Positions 51,169 through 62,634 of a DNA stretch of 64,000 bases are shown one piece after another (the first letter of the stretch is position 1; each line of letters starts with the position of its first letter). Where the stretch lies: NCBI GenBank assembly GCA_010094025.1, contig ML991822.1, positions 124,001-188,000 of the forward strand. Reading direction: 5' to 3'. The stretch is from Viridothelium virens (Eukaryota; Ascomycota; Dothideomycetes; Trypetheliales; Trypetheliaceae). The position numbers and the translations under genes were made by a program. Below the pieces are notes generated by a model. That model was not told where the DNA came from. It worked only from the letters and a program-made list of their open reading frames with translations, and searched no databases.

Positions 51169-53363
51169 CGTCAGAAGAATGTCGACGCTCATGGAGCAAG
51201 CATCCAAGCATACCAAGTTGCACACGGTAAGCAACAAGGTTGCAGTCTCTTGACAGAGTTGGACCTAGCTGTGATCTGAGCCATACTGTGTCAACGATAT
51301 GGGTCAAACGTCGATGGCTGGGAGGCCTACCAATAGGGCTTAGATCTACATCTCGCATAGGGTCGGTTTCTAATTCCGATTACTGCAACCTGCATTTGCA
51401 TGGTTGGAGCATCAAGTATGTGAAGACCAGGATTGCGGATAGGTAGATAGGTTTCTAAAGATTCCCCGATCACCAGATTCACATACAATGTATCCAAAAT
51501 CTCCATTACTCGCAGACTCTTTGCTTAGCGCCGCCTTTGCTCTGGAACGCAGCATGTGGTACGCACGTGGGAGATCGAGGGGTGTAATTTTGCAAGCCCC
51601 GATATTTCCCAAGGAAATCTTAAGTGCGAAGAATTTCTTGACACAAGGATTCACTCAAATTCCAAACTAGGGAGAACGTGTCGCCAATCGCAAATTCTCT
51701 CGCTCATGTGTGGGTCTAGCAACGAGATTGGTTTTGACGGGAGGGCTGCCCGCGTACAGAAAGCATCGCATTGCATGAAATGTCGGTCCACGTCGGATGC
51801 AAGGGGAACCTGACGTACCACCACGTAGAGCAAGCTGACAAGCACGAGGTTCCTTTCTTGAGTCTGAAACGTCATCAGCTCATTGTCTCTGACAGTCTGC
51901 TGCTCAGGTGAGGCTCATATCCAGACGGCATTTCATCGCCACTGGCACATATCTTCGATTCACTGACATTTCAGCGGAACACAGCACGGCATCTTCAGAA
52001 GGCTTGGATCGAGTTTCGACCGTTTTGAAGGCGTTGCGCCAATCGCTAAGCAGGAACTGGGATGCATCAGCACGGAGTGGAGCCAGAAATTGCTACGCGG
52101 GCTCGGCCGGCGCCTATGCCGGCTTCTGACTGGACATCTCTGGTACGGCTAAATCAGCACTTCACAGCACCTGCATGATCCTCCTAGTGCTTCTACCAGC
52201 TCCCCGACTTTTGGTGACGCTTTCTCGCAGCTTGGTTCGTCCTGGGTTGCTGGAGTTCTGCATCCCTCGGTCAAGGTGGTATCCGAGCGATGATCATGCT
52301 GCATTCGTCACTGTCACTGCCGTCGGCTCACTCCACCGCTCAACGTGGCCTTCGTTGAACAAAGTCCCGAGTAACCTAATGTCTGGCCTGGCCTGGCCTG
52401 TCGCGAGTACTGAATCTTCGCAATCGCGCAAGCATTTAATGGCTAGAGCATCTGGAGGGTTGGACTTGTTGCTCATTGCTTCCTCAACGACACCAAGAAT
52501 GAGCTGCTAGCTAGAGTGGAAAGTGGCTAGTTTGAGCCGATGTTGGTGTTGATGCAAGTGCTCCCGGGACGGACCTATGCTAGCGTTGGAGACCTCCTAT
52601 CCCTCCTATCGAAGCTATCCAGCCTATCCAGGATCGGCACATCTAGAGCTGTCAAGTTCGACCAATACTGCTCGCGAAGCTGCCGCCTGCCTTTGCCATG
52701 CCGCAGTCTTCTTAGAAGCGGCGCAGAATTCCAGTTGGAATTGGAAAAGGAGTCGACTCGATTGAGAAATACACCAACTTCATCACATTGTCCATGGTGA
52801 CGGAAGCTGACGAACCCCCAAAACGACCGGATATCCGGCGGTTCTCTGCATGGTCCTGCCGCCGCTCATAGGGCAAGCCTGTGCCTTGGACCCTTGCATC
52901 TTGCAGATTCCCTCCATCTCCACAGTGCATGGGGATCACTGCGCGCCGTGTCTCACTCTCTCCACTTATCGAATCGTAGCACATCCTGGTTCTTCTTCGC
53001 CTAAGACCTATTCCATTCAATTGGGCTGCATTGACCCCATTCTTCTCCTCATTCTTCTCCTTTGCCTCCATCGCATTTCCTATACTCATACTTGGGGAGT
53101 CTGGAATTCCTCTCGCAAGTTTTCTGCATTTGTCGCCATCTCCCTGTTCTATCTCCGCTGCAGTATCCATGAGCCTTGCGTGCGTTTCGAACTTCTCAAC
53201 CCTGGCATTGTCGGACTTATGAATCGGATATTACGGTAGTCGCATTGCGCGAATTGCGGCACGACGTTTAACTTGGCGAGTTGCGCATCGCTTCGATCCA
53301 GACGAAATTCAACTCTAGAAAAGAACCTCGAGCTGGTCTTGGGTTGGGTTACACAGAAACACA
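51169..53363. other. Long intergenic region
   Basis: 2.2 kb without a supported gene. Opposed frames at 52850-53239 (plus) and 52712-53170 (minus) overlap each other and neither has a motif. No RNA gene, transposon or array seen. Confidence 0.4.
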
Positions 53364-55931
53364 ATGCCTGCTATAAATGAAATATTTGTAGAAGGCGAAC
53401 GCGTGGAACTGGAGGAAAGAGATGCGGACTTCATACCAACAAAGGTGGACCTGCCAGTCACAGTCGCGGAGCTCGTTCCTCGAGTCAGCATACCGGTCAA
53501 CACCAGCAGTCCAGCAGGTCTTATCGCCGCGAACGCCCAAGACCCATGGGCAGCATCCGGCAAATATGGATTGGGGTGGGTCTATTTTGGAGTAATACTC
53601 TTGGTTCTGACGACCTTGATACGGTTATACAATCTCTTCACGGACAGAGTGCGGGCCGCGCTTCATCAGGAGCATTTACAGAAAGGTTCCAAAACATCGT
53701 CACCAGCCACAGACTATGAGCTCTCAGATATTTACACGGCAAGATCCACCACCAAATTCTTCCCTCGTACCGAGCAAGTATCCGAAACTCCACCTTCTGA
53801 AGCAACAATCTCTTCCGTACGACCACTGAACATGCTCATTGCAATGTTTCGCTTTGTCTTTTACCGTCCTATGCCTGTGATCGTTTATCGTAAAAGGTGG
53901 AGACCGATTGTGTTCCCTTCGTTGAGTGTTATCTGCATCGCTACTGCTGGACTGGTCTTTAGCGTTCTGTACACCTTCATCCCTCAGCCTTTGTTTTTCC
54001 AAAGCATGGCTTTTGGTTCTCCACCGGTGGCCATCCGAGCTGGAATGTTGGCTGTCGCTATGATGCCCTGGATAATCGCTACGAGCATGAAAGCTAACAT
54101 TGTTAGTATCATGACTGGAATCGGCCACGAGAGGCTGAATACACTGCATCGATGGGGAGCCTATATATGCTTAATACTCAGTCTGATACACACGATCCCG
54201 TTCTATATCCAGAAACTTCAAGATCCAGCTGGTTATGCCATTTGGAGGACTTATTTCAATACCAATGGCATCTACATCTTTGGAACGGGATTTGCGGCTC
54301 TTGCTCCCCTCATTTTTCTCTGCATACATTCTTTGGCCGCACTACGTCACTGGGCCTACGAGCTATTTGTCACCACTCACGTACCAGTTGCAATCATTTA
54401 TCTCGGAATGCTCTTCTGGCATTGCAAGAATTACTTGACATCTTGGAATTATCTCTTTGCTACTTTGGCAATCTGGGTGATTTCTTATGCCATGCGAATC
54501 CTGTATCTCAATTGGACCGTACCGTGGCGGTTGTCTTGGCTCATCGGAGAAGAATCCGCGGTTACACTTATGGACGAGAATGCGATCAAAGTTACAATCC
54601 CGAGTCAAATGCGATGGAGGCCTGGGCAATATGTCTACCTCAGAATGCCAGGTATTTCCGTTTTCGAAAATCATCCATTTACCATAGCATCATTGTGCAG
54701 CGAGGATTTTCCCTCCGAGTATGGCGAAGGCTATAGAGACATGGTCCTAGTCTTCAAGCCCTTCAAGGGGTTCACCAAAAAGGTTCTAGAAAGTGCGCTT
54801 GAACATGGACCTTGGCATACTTATCGAGCTTTTATAGATGGTCCATATGGTGGCATGCGAAGACGGCTGGAAGCTTTCGATCACGTCGTACTGATTGCCG
54901 GAGGGAGTGGTATAACAGCTATCGCAAGTCAGCTTCTTGACCTCATCAAGCGCATGCGGGACGGAAAAGCTGTCACAAAGAATGTCCAGGTCATTTGGGC
55001 AATCAAACGTCCCGAGACCATGGAATGGTTCAAAGAAGAATTGCGAATTTGTCGAGAATATGCACCTCCAGATACGGTCCAGTGTCAGTTCTACATTACA
55101 GCCGCAAAACGTCTTCATCGGACTGGGGAACTCGTATCTGCGCAAACACCTACTCGTCCTGTTAGCCACTTCTTCAAAGACAAGGTCAATGATGTCTTCC
55201 AAGACATTGCGGAGAAGCGGACCAGCAACATTTCGGCCAAGCGCAACTCTGCACTCATCCGAGACGAAGCAGCTGGAGATCCCGAAAGAGAGAAAGAACT
55301 CCGTAAAGAGAACGAAGACAGCATCACCGCCCTCCCCAAAGCCCACCTCGTACCCACCCGCAGCGGCTCAAGAGGACATCTCGTCCCCCCACCACAGCAG
55401 CACCCCGACCTCCCTCAACACCACACACCCCCCGAACTCATCCACCCGCAACCAACGCGCTCCTTCACCGAAAAGCGGCGCGAGCGCAACCTCTCCCTCG
55501 ACATCCAAGCCGCCAGCCGCAGCAACCCGGCCATCGACCAAACCTACGCCAGACTAACACAACCCGCGTCCCCCGACTCGCAGCAGGCCAGCACAGGCGC
55601 CGCGCCTGCCGCCCCCTCCGCCCACGGCGGCTTCGACTTCGGCTTCCCCTCCACCCCGACCGAGTTCCAGAAGAACCTCATGCGCTTCGCCTTCCTGCCC
55701 GCTGCCGTGAAGAAGAAGGACGGCTGGAGCACCGAGTACGGCCGTCCTGACCTCCCCTACACGCTGCGGCAGGCGAGCGCCGAGTTTGGGCGGCGCACTT
55801 GCGTGCTGGTGTGCGGCCCGCCGGGGATGCGCATGGATGTGAGTCGCACGGTGGCGGAGCTGCAGGTGGAGGTGTTGAAGGGTGGGGGGAAGGAGGAGAT
55901 CTTTTTGCATGCGGAGAATTATGCGATATGA
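53364..55931 (+). CDS. Ferric reductase-like transmembrane protein (FRE/NOX family)
   Basis: Single exon, 855 residues. A first helix (WVYFGVILLVLTTLIRLYNL, about 72-92) is followed by the haem-binding membrane core: LHRWGAYICLILSLIHTIPF (residues about 256-276) and ALRHWAYELFVTTHVPVAII (about 328-347) carry the paired histidines. FAD-binding HPFTIASLC lies near residue 436, NADPH-binding GGSGITAIASQLL near 512, and the terminal CGPPGMRMD near 820. It moves electrons from cytosolic NADPH across the membrane, typically to reduce iron or copper. Between the two nucleotide-binding parts, residues about 590-780 form a disordered insert rich in Pro, Gln and Ser, and the DNA there becomes GC-rich. 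No signal peptide is seen, so the N-terminus is probably cytosolic. Confidence 0.88.
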   Translation: MPAINEIFVEGERVELEERDADFIPTKVDLPVTVAELVPRVSIPVNTSSPAGLIAANAQDPWAASGKYGLGWVYFGVILLVLTTLIRLYNLFTDRVRAALHQEHLQKGSKTSSPATDYELSDIYTARSTTKFFPRTEQVSETPPSEATISSVRPLNMLIAMFRFVFYRPMPVIVYRKRWRPIVFPSLSVICIATAGLVFSVLYTFIPQPLFFQSMAFGSPPVAIRAGMLAVAMMPWIIATSMKANIVSIMTGIGHERLNTLHRWGAYICLILSLIHTIPFYIQKLQDPAGYAIWRTYFNTNGIYIFGTGFAALAPLIFLCIHSLAALRHWAYELFVTTHVPVAIIYLGMLFWHCKNYLTSWNYLFATLAIWVISYAMRILYLNWTVPWRLSWLIGEESAVTLMDENAIKVTIPSQMRWRPGQYVYLRMPGISVFENHPFTIASLCSEDFPSEYGEGYRDMVLVFKPFKGFTKKVLESALEHGPWHTYRAFIDGPYGGMRRRLEAFDHVVLIAGGSGITAIASQLLDLIKRMRDGKAVTKNVQVIWAIKRPETMEWFKEELRICREYAPPDTVQCQFYITAAKRLHRTGELVSAQTPTRPVSHFFKDKVNDVFQDIAEKRTSNISAKRNSALIRDEAAGDPEREKELRKENEDSITALPKAHLVPTRSGSRGHLVPPPQQHPDLPQHHTPPELIHPQPTRSFTEKRRERNLSLDIQAASRSNPAIDQTYARLTQPASPDSQQASTGAAPAAPSAHGGFDFGFPSTPTEFQKNLMRFAFLPAAVKKKDGWSTEYGRPDLPYTLRQASAEFGRRTCVLVCGPPGMRMDVSRTVAELQVEVLKGGGKEEIFLHAENYAI

Positions 55932-56863
55932 GGGGATTACGGGAGGGAGGCTTGGGGCTTTGGGGGGTTTGGGGGGGTTTGGGTGTGTAATGCAGGGGGT
56001 CCGGAAGGGGGTATGGCTAATGGACATGAGCACGAGCATGGGCAGGATAATTGCTGCTGATGCGAATGATCATGATAACGGGACGGCGTTTTGATCTTTC
56101 CAGATACCACTTCGTTGTCACTCATGTATGTATATTTCTCCCCATCTATTGTATTTATGCCCTCGAGCGACGTATGAGATGGACGTACAGTACCTTGTTT
56201 CATTATTTGTGGAATTAAAGATGAGCTATCGAGATTCTGCCTACTTGCTAGTTGCTCATGTAGAAAGTCTGAAGGCATCCGAAAGAAGTCGCTAGCGCAC
56301 ACGTCATTGACTAGTCTATCCTAAACCACCACTGACTTCGCTGACTTACAATGACTGTTCCTCGATTTGGGAAAGACTGTACGCGATAATACTATCCTTT
56401 TTCTAGAGTCTAAAGCTTTCGAAGTGATCAAATTCTGTCTGCATCTGCCACGCTCAGCTTTGCGCATTCAGTCATAGAAAGTTGTGACAACAGGCCAGAA
56501 ACAACCTTAAATGCAAGGTCACATTTGGAGATTTTAGGATGCTCAACCCCTGGGTAAGTGCTGAGATGCTATGTTTAATCACACAAGAAAACAAAGGGAG
56601 GCTGCATTTCTTGATGTGCGAGCACCTGGCATGTTCTGTTTAGATTGAATGTTCACTTGACAGCACCCATTCGTACAGCTCGAAGGACAAGCATCAAGTC
56701 CAAGAGTTCAATTGTTCATTTCTTGACATGATCGAATACAAGGTAAGTGCTTGCCAGTTTTCATCCCCGTCCTTTCCATTGTCTTGCCTTACTCACTTAT
56801 GTGCTGACAGCGAGGATGTTATTTGCGCCATTTTCGGAGCTGAAACCGTGCCATGGCCTTACT
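55932..56863. other. Intergenic
   Basis: Contains converging 3' ends. A G-rich run lies at about 55,940-56,010. No gene supported; an ATG at 56728 with a good splice donor after five codons leads only to a short frame. Confidence 0.4.
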
Positions 56864-57457
56864 CTAATTACCATGGAAGCGATCGATTACCGCGAGGCCC
56901 ATCCCGACCACTCCCCCCAATGCCATAATAGCGTGCACTTTGGCAGCCCCATATCCATCCATGGCGGCGCTTTGTAGAATAGCGAATAGACCTCCTGTAG
57001 CGACAGGCGTGATCATGCTCTGTACAGCGGCTGCGATCGAGCCTGAGCGAAGTTATTTTTCAGTCCAAACTTGGTGATGACCCTTGGATACTCACCACCA
57101 ACAGGTCCAAGAGTTCCAAATCCGAGGACACCGAGAAAGACGCCAGTGAAAAGCTGTGGGCGGATAGAGATAAGACCGCTCGCAAGGAAAAATCCGATGA
57201 AGCGCTTATTTTCGCATATGACATCCATTGCGTGCTTGACAAGGTCACCGTTGATGCTGTCCATGCCTCCCTTTTCATTCTTCACTCAGCCAAGCAGATC
57301 TTCGTGTATCTTTCTTACGCAAATAACTCACTTCCGTAGCAAGAGTCAGTATATTACGAGGAGGCGGCAGTCTCGCTACCGTCAGCCTCTCTAGGCTGGA
57401 GATGGACTGCTGAAAGAGGCGTAGAGTGTGAATTTGCACTTGATGAAGATCGGTCAT
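56864..57457 (-). CDS. IFI6/IFI27 (ISG12)-like membrane protein, copy A
   Basis: Three exons, 57457-57332, 57279-57096 and 57042-56864, introns 52 and 53 nt, 162 residues. Exon 1 encodes a hydrophilic helical leader beginning MTDLHQVQIHTLRLFQQS. The C-terminal half has the Ifi-6-16 type signature: QLFTGVFLGVLGFGTLGPVG, then after the second intron GSIAAAVQSMITPVATGG, LFAILQSAAMDGYG and a final glycine-rich helix ALGGVVGMGLAV. In mammals, proteins with this domain are small hydrophobic mitochondrial or ER membrane proteins induced by interferon and linked to cell death; the fungal role is unknown. No signal peptide is evident. It is one of four related loci within 3.5 kb. Confidence 0.78.
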
Positions 57458-57786
57458 CTTGTGATCAGTCGTGTCGGAGTAAATGAGAAACTTCTCTGGC
57501 GAGATGGAAAGCCCGATCACGGAAGGAGTAAACTGGGTAGGTTTTGCAGATGAGTTTGTAGAGGTGGATGGGGCGCATATGCAGCCATTCGCAAGGATAA
57601 TGCAGCAAACTTGACCGCAAGCTTGCGATTGGACATGCAAGCCGAGTTTATAGCCAGGAAAAGGAAGAGCTACAGTCTGTATCCCAAAGCGCTTCTTATT
57701 CCTGAGCCAAAGATCCAAGGTAAAATGATCAGATACTCGTATGAAAACACACATGCTACAAATATCGTAGCGCATGGACTTCATGA

Positions 57787-58373
57787 TCATTCCGGCTTTT
57801 GTTCCCTGGACTCCGCTAGAGACATCGATGCTTGTCGCCTTTTTTTTGTCGGAAGCATCCGAGACAAACTAGAGTAATCCATGAAGCCAGTGGCCGCAAT
57901 TCCAGAGCGAGTTGTGACATTAACAGCAGCGACCTCATAGCCTCCCAAGCCTGCAATCTGAACATGGGCAAAGACAAACAGTGTCATGACAAACACGTAA
58001 ACAGACGATTCGTCGTATGCATCTTTATCTTCTAGAGACTTACCTCAAAAGATTTCCTGCGGTCTTTGATACTCCCCTTTACCCCCAATCCAGTTCGGCA
58101 GATTGGCACATGTATTGGCTTTTCAGTATTCAAATAGTCCAAATCACAAGAACTCAAACAATAAACTATGGGGGCTCGTGGTATCTTTAGTATTTCCACT
58201 GCTCCTAACACAAGTGTGCTTGGAATGATTACTCGAAAGTCGGCTCTCAAGGACACTGCTGAAGTCTCGACGTGTTTCTCCATCGAGTGTATGTAATCCA
58301 CAACCCATGAATCACATATTCGTGAAAACCTTCCAGTGGTGGCCCTGGAGATCACCACTTTCACGGCCCACAT
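57787..58373 (-). pseudogene. IFI6/IFI27-like copy, probably decayed
   Basis: Two frames: 58373-58032 (MWAVKVVISRATTGRFSRIC...) and 57996-57787. The second reads FVFAHVQIAGLGGYEVAAVN followed by VTTR and aligns with copy C (GVFAHLQGAQMGGYGVGPVN then MGTR), so homology to the family is good. A splice donor GTAAGT lies at the end of the first frame (58043), but no acceptor keeps the homologous VFAH part in frame. One acceptor (ending 57958) does give a 166-residue model that omits it. I favour a decayed copy; a divergent live gene is possible. Confidence 0.4.
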
Positions 58374-58724
58374 CCGAATACTGACTAGCCAGCACTGTCT
58401 TGAGAGGCTTTTCTCCTCGAGACCTCTTCCTTTACCCTACTAGGTTCATCTATCGACATCTGCTGCTTGAACAAAATTCACAACCTCTGCTGAATAAGTC
58501 ATCTAAACCAACAACCTCCAATAGTAAGTGTGATGACTGTCTTCTCACGGTCTCGTAGTACCTAAAAGTGTCTCGCATAGGAAGAGACCACAAAAGAAGG
58601 ACTGCCCGAGGAGATCAGAAACGACGCAGGCGTCGAGTGCCTCACAGACAACGATCGTCGCGTAGTCCGGCTTCGGGAGCAGAACATCCCTCATCACGTC
58701 CTCGACGTAGTCCCCCGCAACAAT

Positions 58725-59078
58725 ATGGCATTCATTGTCCCTTTCCTCGTCGGCGGTATCCTTTTCATATTGCCAGCTCTTTTCACCGGTCCACTGCTTG
58801 GCCTCTTGGGATTTGGTGCTGCTGGACCCGTTGCTGGTGAGTATCTCAGTACCCTCCATCGATAAAGTCAATATTGACTACAATCTTTTGATTTAGGCTC
58901 GATCGCAGCTGGCATCCAGAGCATAATCGCGCCTGTCGCTGGTGGAAGCTTGTTCGCCATTCTGCAGAGTGCTGGAATAGGGGGCTTCGGTGCTGCAATA
59001 GTGAACGGGGTTGTAGCTGCTGGAGGTGCCATTGGAATGGCGGCGGCAGCAATCTTTCGCTTTTTTGGCGGCCAGTAG
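58725..59078 (+). CDS. IFI6/IFI27-like membrane protein, copy B
   Basis: Two exons, 58725-58836 and 58897-59078, 60-nt intron, 97 residues, close to the size of the mammalian proteins. Residues 1-40 form a hydrophobic helix pair (FIVPFLVGGILFILPALFTG, then LLGLLGFGAAGPVAG). Exon 2 continues SIAAGIQSIIAPVAGGSLFA, ILQSAGIGGFGAAIVNGVVA and ends AAAAIFRFFGGQ. Nearly all of the protein is membrane-embedded, glycine- and alanine-rich. The reading frame is also open and protein-like upstream to 58581, where a good acceptor (CGCATAG) follows a GTAAGT donor at 58524; no earlier ATG is found, so that part is either leader or coding from an unseen start. It is divergent from the decayed copy. Confidence 0.75.
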
Positions 59079-59538
59079 ATGCACAGGTCAATGTTCTCGC
59101 ATCAACTCCGGGCATGTGATCAAAGTTATGAAGGAATAAGCTGATAGAGGGAAGTGGGTGAACGTGGACGGCATAAGCGATACTAGGCTCTATCCTCTCT
59201 TTTATATTCAGAGCATGTACAGCACTAGAACAGAAGTGTCTGGGCAACTCCCAGCAATTTTCCCGAGCCAACGAGTGGACACTTTTTTCGCATGACTGTG
59301 ATGAACAAATGGTTCCACAACCTTCTGGACTAGTCTTCGAGTGCACCTATATTCATGCGGCTCTGAATGTCAAAATTAGGTGCGATGCTCGATAGACATC
59401 AACTGCTCTTTCCGAATATTCAAGGTGTGCTAATCTTTTCATTCCCGCGTCTTTGACTATGCTGCAATCCTCACCTTCTAGTGCCTGACTTGCCGGGATT
59501 CTTGTTGTTATGGCTGCTGGCGATGTAGTAAGAGGGCT

Positions 59539-60339
59539 TCACGACGATTCGGTGCTGTGCTCCGGTGCCACCAGCTTAGGATGATCGACGCTTGATGCGA
59601 ACCCGTCTCTCCAATTTCTTGCAGAGAAATAACTTGCAAGATCAGAAACAGCAATACTCACACGAGTGCCCATGTTTACAGGACCGACCCCATAGCCTCC
59701 CATTTGAGCACCCTGAAGGTGGGCAAAGACACCTTTTGCGACAACACGGGTCATTTTGCTCTGAGCAATAGCAGCAATAGATCCTTCAATAAAATATTTG
59801 GTAAGCTGAGATATTTAGATATGGTGCTGGAGGGACTTACGAGCTTTTGGACCCTCCGCAGAAAGACCGACGGTAGAAAGTAGAGGACAATTGACCCATG
59901 CAGGGAAGGAAAGAGTGAATACATATCCTGCCCAGATAGCATAGGAAGCTGCCTGCGTTGGATGGGCCTGGACCCATGCAAGAGCATCGCTTGGGACCTT
60001 ACTGATCTTGACTTCACTAAGCATCTGCTTGACCTCGTCTATGAGAGTGGAGACTTGCTCAGCCACAACGACAGCCCAAGTACGAGAGTGGTCCTGCATC
60101 ATGTGCAACTCTAGGTCTCTTGTCAACACCGGAAGATCGTGAGATAATGAGTCTGCACACTCCTCCATACGCTCTGAATCCGTTATGAAGGTACTGCTGC
60201 ATTGGTAAAATTGCTCCAAGTATGTTTGACGATTCGTACTTTGGGACATCAGCCTATTCGTATCCACGATGGTACTTTGCGACTTCGCTGTTGCAAAAGA
60301 GCCAGTGGAGCAGATGAGGAAGATGTTAAGGAGCTTCAT
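59539..60339 (-). CDS. IFI6/IFI27-like protein with secretory signal and helical N-domain, copy C
   Basis: Two exons, 60339-59841 and 59783-59539, 57-nt intron, 247 residues. It opens with a signal peptide (MKLLNIFLICSTGSFATAKS), then a soluble helical domain with two cysteines (QFYQCSSTF and MEECADSL) to about residue 135, then a hydrophobic segment (ASYAIWAGYVFTLSFPAWV) and the family domain: LLSTVGLSAEGPKA, intron, RSIAAIAQSKMTRVVAKG, VFAHLQGAQMGGYG. The end (residues 215-247) is not conserved; a GTGAGT after MGTR could mark another intron with a different tail. It points towards copy B. Entry into the secretory pathway differs from copies A and B. Confidence 0.72.
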
Positions 60340-61098
60340 CGGTACGATTGGTTGTTGGTTGGTCTCAAACTTCTTCTTATTCGGCTGAGAAATACTTTGA
60401 CCAGGAAAAAGGAGCCGGCTGAGAGAGAAATAAGAGAAGTCTGGACTTTACCAAGCTTTCCTGCAGGACGCAATGTTATATTTTGCGTGGTTGCGGCGTG
60501 TGTATGCCTAAGGCTGTGGATGGAGATGAGGGAACTTTGCAAGGCAGATCACCTGAACCCACACAGCCACCTGCACAACCAGGCTTTCTCAACAGCGCCT
60601 GACACAACATCTCGACAGCGAGGCTCTGAGCATGCCTTGAGTCCACCGAGACTGATGATAGGACACGGTAGATTGTTGAAGTCGAAGTTTCAATGGCACG
60701 AATGGGTACGATAAGCCTTCGGTTGCAAAGCCCCTGGCGGCGATCGACAGGGACTGAAGTTGACGCTTGGGCCCATCACTCGATTGATCGAGCCAGCAAC
60801 TGGAGACGTCATATTAATCTTCTTTCAAGCCACATTCATCAAGAGTATAGTTCGCTGCCTAGAAAAGTACTAATCAGTGCTTGAAGCTTGCTGCGTTTCC
60901 CTATTTTCTATTTGACGCAGTACACGTCCTGTGTTCACTTGCTTTTGTACTGCCAAGCTCTCTGTTGATTGAGCAAAGTTTCCTCGAAATCCGTGCTTCG
61001 TTGCAATCATTCTCTTTCTACGCATTCTGAAGAGTAATATACTCTTCACTCAAAAGAAGTCTGGGCCAATAGTTCTTTTCTCATCACATCCCTTGATT
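60340..61098. other. Intergenic, divergent promoters
   Basis: Between copy C of the IFI6-like family and the DNA glycosylase, which point away from each other. Open plus-strand frame 60202-60714 is motif-free and overlaps copy C's leader. Confidence 0.45.
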
Positions 61099-62634
61099 AT
61101 GGCTCGAAGAGTGACTCGCTCGTCTGTAGCGTCCTCGCCGGCCACAGGTAGAAATCCTGTAAAGCCGGAGCCTCAGCAGCTTTCCAGTCCACCAGCTACA
61201 CCGGATCCGCAAAAAGGCAAAGCAAATGGGCGTAAGACGCCAAATTCTAGAGTCTCCGAGAAAGGCTCTAAGGGCCGGGTAGCTAAGGCTCAGCCGTCCA
61301 CCCCAGCAGGCTCTCGGAAGCGGACGAGAACGAATCTAAAGCAGGAGGAAGACCAGGACGAATTGCCTCACAACCTCCAGAGCTTCGGTGGGGACCAAGG
61401 TCGAAGTAGTGAACCTACGAGAGAAGATGAAACCCCACAAACGAAGTCACGCAAGATTGAACCACAATCTCCTAGCACAGGACAAACGAAGTTAGGCCCT
61501 GAAATTCAGGACCAGGAAGCTGAAGCAAGAACTCCAAACTCCGCAAAGAAGGGTAAAAAGGCCAAGGGCAATAATTACGGGCTTACACGAGGCGAAACAC
61601 CATTCCCCGACTGGCCCCATCCGACTCCTGAGGAGTGCCACGAGGTCGTGCGAGAACTTTCCAAGGTTCATGGGGAAGTGAAGGTACCAAAGAAAATACC
61701 AACGCCATCACTGAATGTCGCTGGCTGTGGAGAGGTTCCATCTGTACTTGATGCATTAATTCGCACACGGTTGAGTGCAGCTACTTCCAACACAAACTCG
61801 TCTCGTGCATTCCAGGGTCTGGTGCAGAAATTTGGCATCATTGAAGAGGGCATTGGCAAGGGTAGTGTAGACTGGAACAAAGTACGTACGGCGCCAACCA
61901 AAGAAGTGTTCGAAGCAATCAAGAGTGGCGGTCTTGCGGATGTCAAGAGCAGGGATATCAAGACAATCTTGCAGTTGGTCTACGAAGAGAATCAAGCTCG
62001 GCGCGAGTCTTTAGTCAAGGCCGAATCTGATGAGAATACCAAGGGACCGGAAGGAGTCGAGAACGAAAATGCAAGCGAGAAGAAAGACGAGATCGACCGT
62101 GCTGAGTCTAATGTCCTATCATTGGACCACCTTCACCTCGTATCGAATGACGAAGCTTTCGATCATCTCATAAAGTATCCTGGGATTGGTCCCAAGACAG
62201 CGTCGTGTGTGTTACTTTTCTGCCTTCAACGCCCAAGCTTTGCAGTTGATACGCACGTCTTCAGACTTTGCAAATGGCTACGCTGGGTGCCACCGACGAA
62301 GGCTACGCGCAACACCACGTATAGTCACTGCGAAGTGCGCATTCCGGATGATCTTAAGTACCCCTTGCATTACCTTCTTATCAAACATGGAAAGACTTGT
62401 CCGAGATGCAGAGCCATTACCGGAGAAGCCAGTGCGGACTGGGGGAAAGGTTGTCCGATTGAGCGTTTAGTCAAGCGTACGGGTAGCCGAAAGGGTGCTG
62501 CTGGAGGGTCTACCAAGAAGGCGAAGAAGAGCAAGAAGGTTGACACGGATACAGATAACGATGATGAAAGTAGTGGATTGAGTGATCTTGATGAGGATAT
62601 GGATGAGTTAGATGCCGAACCAGATGACGAGTAA
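61099..62634 (+). CDS. HhH-GPD DNA glycosylase (endonuclease III-like), base-excision repair
   Basis: Single exon, 511 residues from the ATG at 61099. The first 150 residues are basic, disordered and nuclear in character. The catalytic fold starts at SVLDALIRTRLSAATSNTNS (about 216-235). The helix-hairpin-helix is KYPGIGPKTASCVL with the catalytic Lys near residue 366, and the catalytic Asp is in AVDTHVFRLCKW near 383. Between the two halves a charged insert of about 45 residues (KAESDENTKGPEGVENENAS and beyond, about 301-345) interrupts the fold. The region after it has only three cysteines (TCPRC, then GC) where iron-sulphur family members use four. It should excise damaged bases in the nucleus; the exact substrate is unknown. 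The tail is acidic. Confidence 0.83.
   Translation: MARRVTRSSVASSPATGRNPVKPEPQQLSSPPATPDPQKGKANGRKTPNSRVSEKGSKGRVAKAQPSTPAGSRKRTRTNLKQEEDQDELPHNLQSFGGDQGRSSEPTREDETPQTKSRKIEPQSPSTGQTKLGPEIQDQEAEARTPNSAKKGKKAKGNNYGLTRGETPFPDWPHPTPEECHEVVRELSKVHGEVKVPKKIPTPSLNVAGCGEVPSVLDALIRTRLSAATSNTNSSRAFQGLVQKFGIIEEGIGKGSVDWNKVRTAPTKEVFEAIKSGGLADVKSRDIKTILQLVYEENQARRESLVKAESDENTKGPEGVENENASEKKDEIDRAESNVLSLDHLHLVSNDEAFDHLIKYPGIGPKTASCVLLFCLQRPSFAVDTHVFRLCKWLRWVPPTKATRNTTYSHCEVRIPDDLKYPLHYLLIKHGKTCPRCRAITGEASADWGKGCPIERLVKRTGSRKGAAGGSTKKAKKSKKVDTDTDNDDESSGLSDLDEDMDELDAEPDDE

Follow-up and report, generated by a model that had tools for sequence, protein, structure and literature searches.

A probable local cluster of Ifi-6-16 (ISG12/FAM14) family genes in the fungus Viridothelium virens

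Three gene-like copies, A, B and C, and a fragment, D, of what is very likely the Ifi-6-16 family lie within about 3.5 kb (positions 56864-60339) of the Viridothelium virens DNA analysed here, a stretch of 64,000 nucleotides referred to below as the window. We give a probability of roughly 0.8 to the reading that they constitute a local cluster of fungal Ifi-6-16 (ISG12/FAM14) members, which arose by duplication and divergence and in which one copy is now a fragment (Table 1). The cluster is real: the fungus carries a small, divergent local set of genes from a eukaryotic family that is already known, and not a new kind of system. The first-pass annotation of this DNA had described clustered copies with one of them decayed, and had proposed local duplication with a single decay event; both statements are borne out by the homology of A, B and C and by the fragmentary state of D. 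Its description of the family as fast-evolving is only suggested by the data.

Table 1. Features of the Ifi-6-16-like cluster and of the related gene on contig C20. Positions are those of the window unless a contig is named.
Feature	Content	Position	Strand	Remarks
A, possible first coding exon	Hydrophilic leader MTDLHQ...LATE	57332..57457	-	Start codon uncertain
A, middle exon	NEKGGMDSING...LGFGTLGPVG + 1 base	57096..57279	-	
A, last exon	SIAAAVQS...LFAILQS...DGYG...	56864..57042	-	Phase-1 join; Pfam Ifi-6-16 for spliced protein
D	Remnant of a C-like copy (VFAHVQIAGLGGYEVAAVN...)	57868..57975	-	36 codons
B, possible coding leader	48 in-frame codons before MAFIV	58581..58724	+	No start codon found
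B, core exon	MAFIV to GPVA + 1 base	58725..58836	+	
B, last exon	SIAAGIQS...LFAILQS...GGFG...	58897..59078	+	Phase-1 join; Pfam Ifi-6-16 for spliced protein
C, first exon	Signal-peptide-like start, hydrophilic region, WVQAHPTQAA, first half of the core	59841..60339	-	
C, last exon	SIAAIAQS...VFAHLQ...GGYG...	59539..59783	-	Phase-1 join; Pfam Ifi-6-16 below cut-off
SIAAxxQS site		57017-57040	-	
SIAAxxQS site		58899-58922	+	
SIAAxxQS site		59758-59781	-	
C20 Ifi-6-16 gene		Contig C20, 69533-70172		196 codons spliced; 49-base phase-1 intron

The family assignment was made with the curated cut-off of Pfam PF06140 (Ifi-6-16), 29.1 bits for the whole protein, applied to the predicted spliced models. 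The membership claimed earlier for the whole group stands by this rule for A (37 bits, 3.2e-9) and B (43.8 bits, 2.5e-11), but not for C, which scores 18.1 bits, or for fragment D, which gives no match to the profile. Because its score falls under the cut-off, C is placed by its alignment and shared intron and not by the Pfam rule; it is a relative without being a member in the curated sense. The other Pfam names drawn by the cluster proteins and the C20 protein (see below) scored between 9.7 and 15.3 bits, where the cut-offs run from 25 to 27.

The pattern SxAAxxQ(S/T) has three matches in the six frames of the window, all of them in the cluster and all of the form SIAAxxQS, as compared to a mean of 0.17 and a maximum of 1 in 30 block shuffles of the window. 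Directly before the S of this motif, A, B and C each have a GT-AG phase-1 intron, of 53, 60 and 57 bases, respectively. The longer pattern (A/G)xSIAAxxQS is found in all three spliced genes and has no match in the unspliced window, because the intron sits directly before the S codon. The motif had been attributed to every copy; it is carried by A, B and C, whereas D lacks it and retains only VFAHVQ and GGYE. The second motif proposed for all four copies, of the (L/V)FA(I/H)LQ type, is present in each: (L/V)FA(I/H)(L/V)Q matches four times in the window, always in the cluster, and in none of the 30 shuffles. The third, GG(Y/F)G, does not hold as a common feature, being restricted to B and C (A has DGYG), and is not distinctive, with six places in the window, four of them outside the cluster, and 2.1 in the shuffles (maximum 5).

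Pairwise local alignments also connect the copies. The scores of A-B (268; shuffles 47.8 +/- 8.0), A-C (99; 27.7 +/- 4.5) and B-C (115; 26.3 +/- 4.3) were each reached by none of 2000 composition-preserving shuffles. For fragment D the alignment scores are 81 (C), 54 (B) and 40 (A). In five of the six pairs (A-B, A-C, B-C, B-D and C-D) the score exceeds all 2000 shuffles, and the A-D score was reached by 7 of 2000. The division into two subtypes, A/B and C with the decayed copy, agrees with these values: A and B are far closer to each other than either is to C, and D aligns best with C. A resemblance produced by the composition of glycine/alanine-rich hydrophobic sequence, without homology, would fit the 42% glycine plus alanine of B, but is hardly credible given the shuffles, the match of C at a glycine plus alanine content of only 15%, and the intron, which has the same phase and lies at the same site in the three cluster genes and the C20 gene.

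Copy C differs from A and B in its predicted protein. Spliced C is open for 247 codons and begins with a stretch that resembles a signal peptide, as judged by eye. A single-sequence fold of its first exon is mostly helical at a pLDDT of only 37.5, which gives no usable model. In a 19-residue hydropathy window, A has two transmembrane-like segments, B consists of such stretches almost from end to end, and C has none. To judge from its sequence, C has lost much of its hydrophobicity and begins in the manner of a secreted protein; because it combines the absence of a transmembrane-like segment with the signal-peptide-like start, its function may differ from that of A and B. Fragment D is 50% identical to C over 36 amino acids, and the two share a DNA repeat of 57 bases at 77%.

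To look beyond the window, we searched the genome assembly of the same fungus (30.7 Mb, 175 contigs). The PF06140 profile found only A and B at E <= 0.001, and B and C as queries found places in this cluster only; these searches read the genome exon by exon, so their counts are lower bounds and further members may exist. At E <= 10 the profile marked a third place, on contig C20, whose 18.1 bits (E 0.06) fall short of the cut-off, at a threshold at which one of 14 control genomes also matched. Since the raw match is weak and a control matched as well, the membership of this gene rests on its spliced model, its intron and the score of the spliced protein, 43 bits (E 4.2e-11), which passes the cut-off. 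The intron lies at the same place as in the cluster genes (..GILE / ASWAARWQTSY..SLFSYLQS..). A long hydrophilic leader is present in the predicted protein, as is the segment WAEAHPEMAA, the counterpart of WVQAHPTQAA in C. Its similarity to B (score 60, reached by 0 of 2000 shuffles) and to C (65, 2 of 2000) is clear, and that to A is weak (39, 56 of 2000). Used as a query of its own genome, the C20 protein found only itself. A cysteine cluster (GCCC) is located near its start. With this gene, the fifth member when D is counted, the family extends beyond the cluster, and gene-like copies in the genome number at least four.

Relatives outside this genome were sought in collections that are not fungal-genome collections, and none was found there. 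With an alignment of A, B and part of C, 81 stretches in a prokaryotic contig collection had one of two short patterns and 21 stretches in a viral contig collection had a short pattern, and none of either set was confirmed. B, the one protein compared with PDB sequences, had no match there at E up to 10, and B, C and the C20 protein had none in PADLOC at E up to 1.

The starts of A and B are less certain than their cores. The possible first exon of A, as read from the DNA, is an open frame that joins the next exon in phase through GT...AG; its codon score is 0.04, where the two alternative frames of the strand give -0.84 and -0.19, which lends it weak support. A shorter model would start at the ATG at 57264. 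The frame of this leader stays open for 197 codons in all (57275-57868, reverse strand), up to the end of D, and the true start of A is uncertain. The GTLGPVGG stretch of A (57094-57116) has a 23-base direct repeat (83%) just past the end of the gene (56687-56709). The repeat is either the trace of another copy or chance, the latter being counted because short two-copy repeats often are chance. For B, an N-terminus of almost nothing had been proposed. This is doubtful: the 48 codons upstream of MAFIV are open and in frame, and score as coding (0.21, like right-frame windows; one reverse frame 0.17), yet they contain no ATG and have no convincing start. Two-exon models were considered for ATGs between 57701 and 58600, with 350 bases as the longest intron; 41 of them supply an ATG to the leader, and only two of these have a good donor, each with a 341-base intron. 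A good donor at 58524 with the AG at 58580 was rejected as the opening of the leader exon, the upstream frame having no ATG after its last stop. When B is aligned with the other two cluster genes and the C20 gene, MAFIV falls inside a segment that the others extend upstream. Compared by themselves, the leaders of A and B show marginal similarity (p 0.0502, 5000 shuffles). Either B has lost its leader and starts at MAFIV, or the gene has an exon that was overlooked.

The model behind the codon scores is small. Nine flanking open frames served to train it, and the spread of right and wrong frames was measured on the same frames: in the training genes, right-frame windows of 48 codons score 0.175 +/- 0.12, and 1.9% of wrong-frame windows reach 0.15. 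The model is noisy, and in some exons the coding frame is not the one that scores highest. An opposite-strand frame beats the coding frame in the middle exon of A (0.32 against 0.03; 57264-57096) and in the last exon of B (0.17 against 0.14), and two reverse frames (0.27 and 0.17) exceed the -0.02 of the B core exon. Fragment D scores 0.17. The low values of the A middle exon and the B core exon are what would be expected if the cluster were largely non-functional, with its copies drifting to decay, D furthest, and with the C20 copy as the working gene. The fragmentary D, the coding-like leader of B without a found start, and a copy C at 18.1 bits that has no transmembrane-like segment and is losing its hydrophobic core point the same way. 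We nevertheless consider general decay unlikely: A, B and C retain open frames and GT-AG introns at one common site, C through all of its 247 codons, and B keeps the ATG at MAFIV. The C20 copy, for its part, is not clearly the better gene, because it ends early, soon after SYLQS, and matches the profile only in part, over positions 3-62 of 84.

Under the preferred reading of a family cluster formed by duplication and divergence, A and B would be small glycine/alanine-rich proteins, probably inserted as packed helical hairpins in an internal membrane. The fold of the B last exon, aligned with the last exons of A and C, has two helices (residues 2-27 and 30-57), a hairpin predicted with modest confidence at best (pLDDT 65.4). 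The membrane could be mitochondrial, endoplasmic reticulum or nuclear; any hydrophilic leader would lie on the soluble side; and the proteins would act by altering how permeable the membrane is or what shape it takes, with stress as the most likely setting. Such a putative membrane-modulating function is a tentative proposal, and a role specifically in cell death, suggested by analogy, is distinctly unlikely. The family is also known from animal work that points in different directions: IFI6 in dengue-infected cells is reported to stabilise the mitochondrial potential and to lower caspase activation and apoptosis (PMC4526556), and a shrimp homologue is reported to be a positive regulator of apoptosis-related genes (PMC9144789). 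A review describes recent findings on IFI6 as conflicting and names hepatitis C virus as its example (PMC5850085). The label "death-related" cannot be transferred by analogy from animals to the fungus on the present basis. A more elaborate scheme, in which the long form with a soluble leader and an Ifi-6-16 hairpin (the C20 protein and the diverged C) would act as a regulated membrane permeabiliser in a stress or self/non-self response, with A and B as partners or modulators, is a long shot.

Nearly all of the papers on the family that were consulted deal with interferon-related animal genes. Some of the human members are clustered. To our knowledge, fungi have no interferon system; because of this, fungal copies could reveal what these membrane proteins did before the link to interferon. 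PF06140, the family of human IFI6, IFI27, IFI27L1 and IFI27L2, is defined by a conserved hydrophobic domain of about 80 residues, for which A, B and the C20 protein pass the cut-off. ISG12/FAM14 proteins are small and hydrophobic, with transmembrane-like helices; the animal members are induced by interferon and reside in mitochondria, the endoplasmic reticulum or the nuclear envelope. The fungal set differs from ISG12/FAM14 in the long hydrophilic N-terminal regions of C and the C20 protein, in the possible leaders of A and B, and in the score of C below the cut-off. Several family members each are described for human and mouse (PMC5850085). A precedent outside vertebrates is the IFI6-16 of Litopenaeus vannamei, an invertebrate member described as having a signal peptide, a transmembrane region and the domain at its end; it is an animal protein upregulated by viral challenge (PMC9144789).

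Among the matches listed in open-licence literature, we noticed a single fungal Ifi-6-16 entry, one table row of a secretome paper, where the domain is annotated in Thielaviopsis punctulata KKA29592.1 (PMC10051545). According to that row KKA29592.1 also carries Ferritin_2, for which A, B, C, D and the C20 protein have no match at E up to 10. The presence of a Ferritin_2 and Ifi-6-16 protein in a secretome paper, together with the signal-peptide-like start of C, would be consistent with secreted or cell-surface proteins that are membrane-active against other organisms. This appears improbable, as no clear signal peptide can be seen by eye in A or B (their starts being uncertain), and C, the sole copy with such a start, is without transmembrane-like segments.

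In its gene content and short introns, the window resembles a filamentous ascomycete. The cluster is flanked on one side by a ferric-reductase-like frame (53319-55931) and on the other by a frame that resembles HhH-GPD DNA glycosylases in Pfam (60973-62634). At the end of the ferric-reductase-like gene, the GC content rises to 66% (55500-55999), and a 171-codon frame is open on the opposite strand (55554-56069); both probably reflect composition only.
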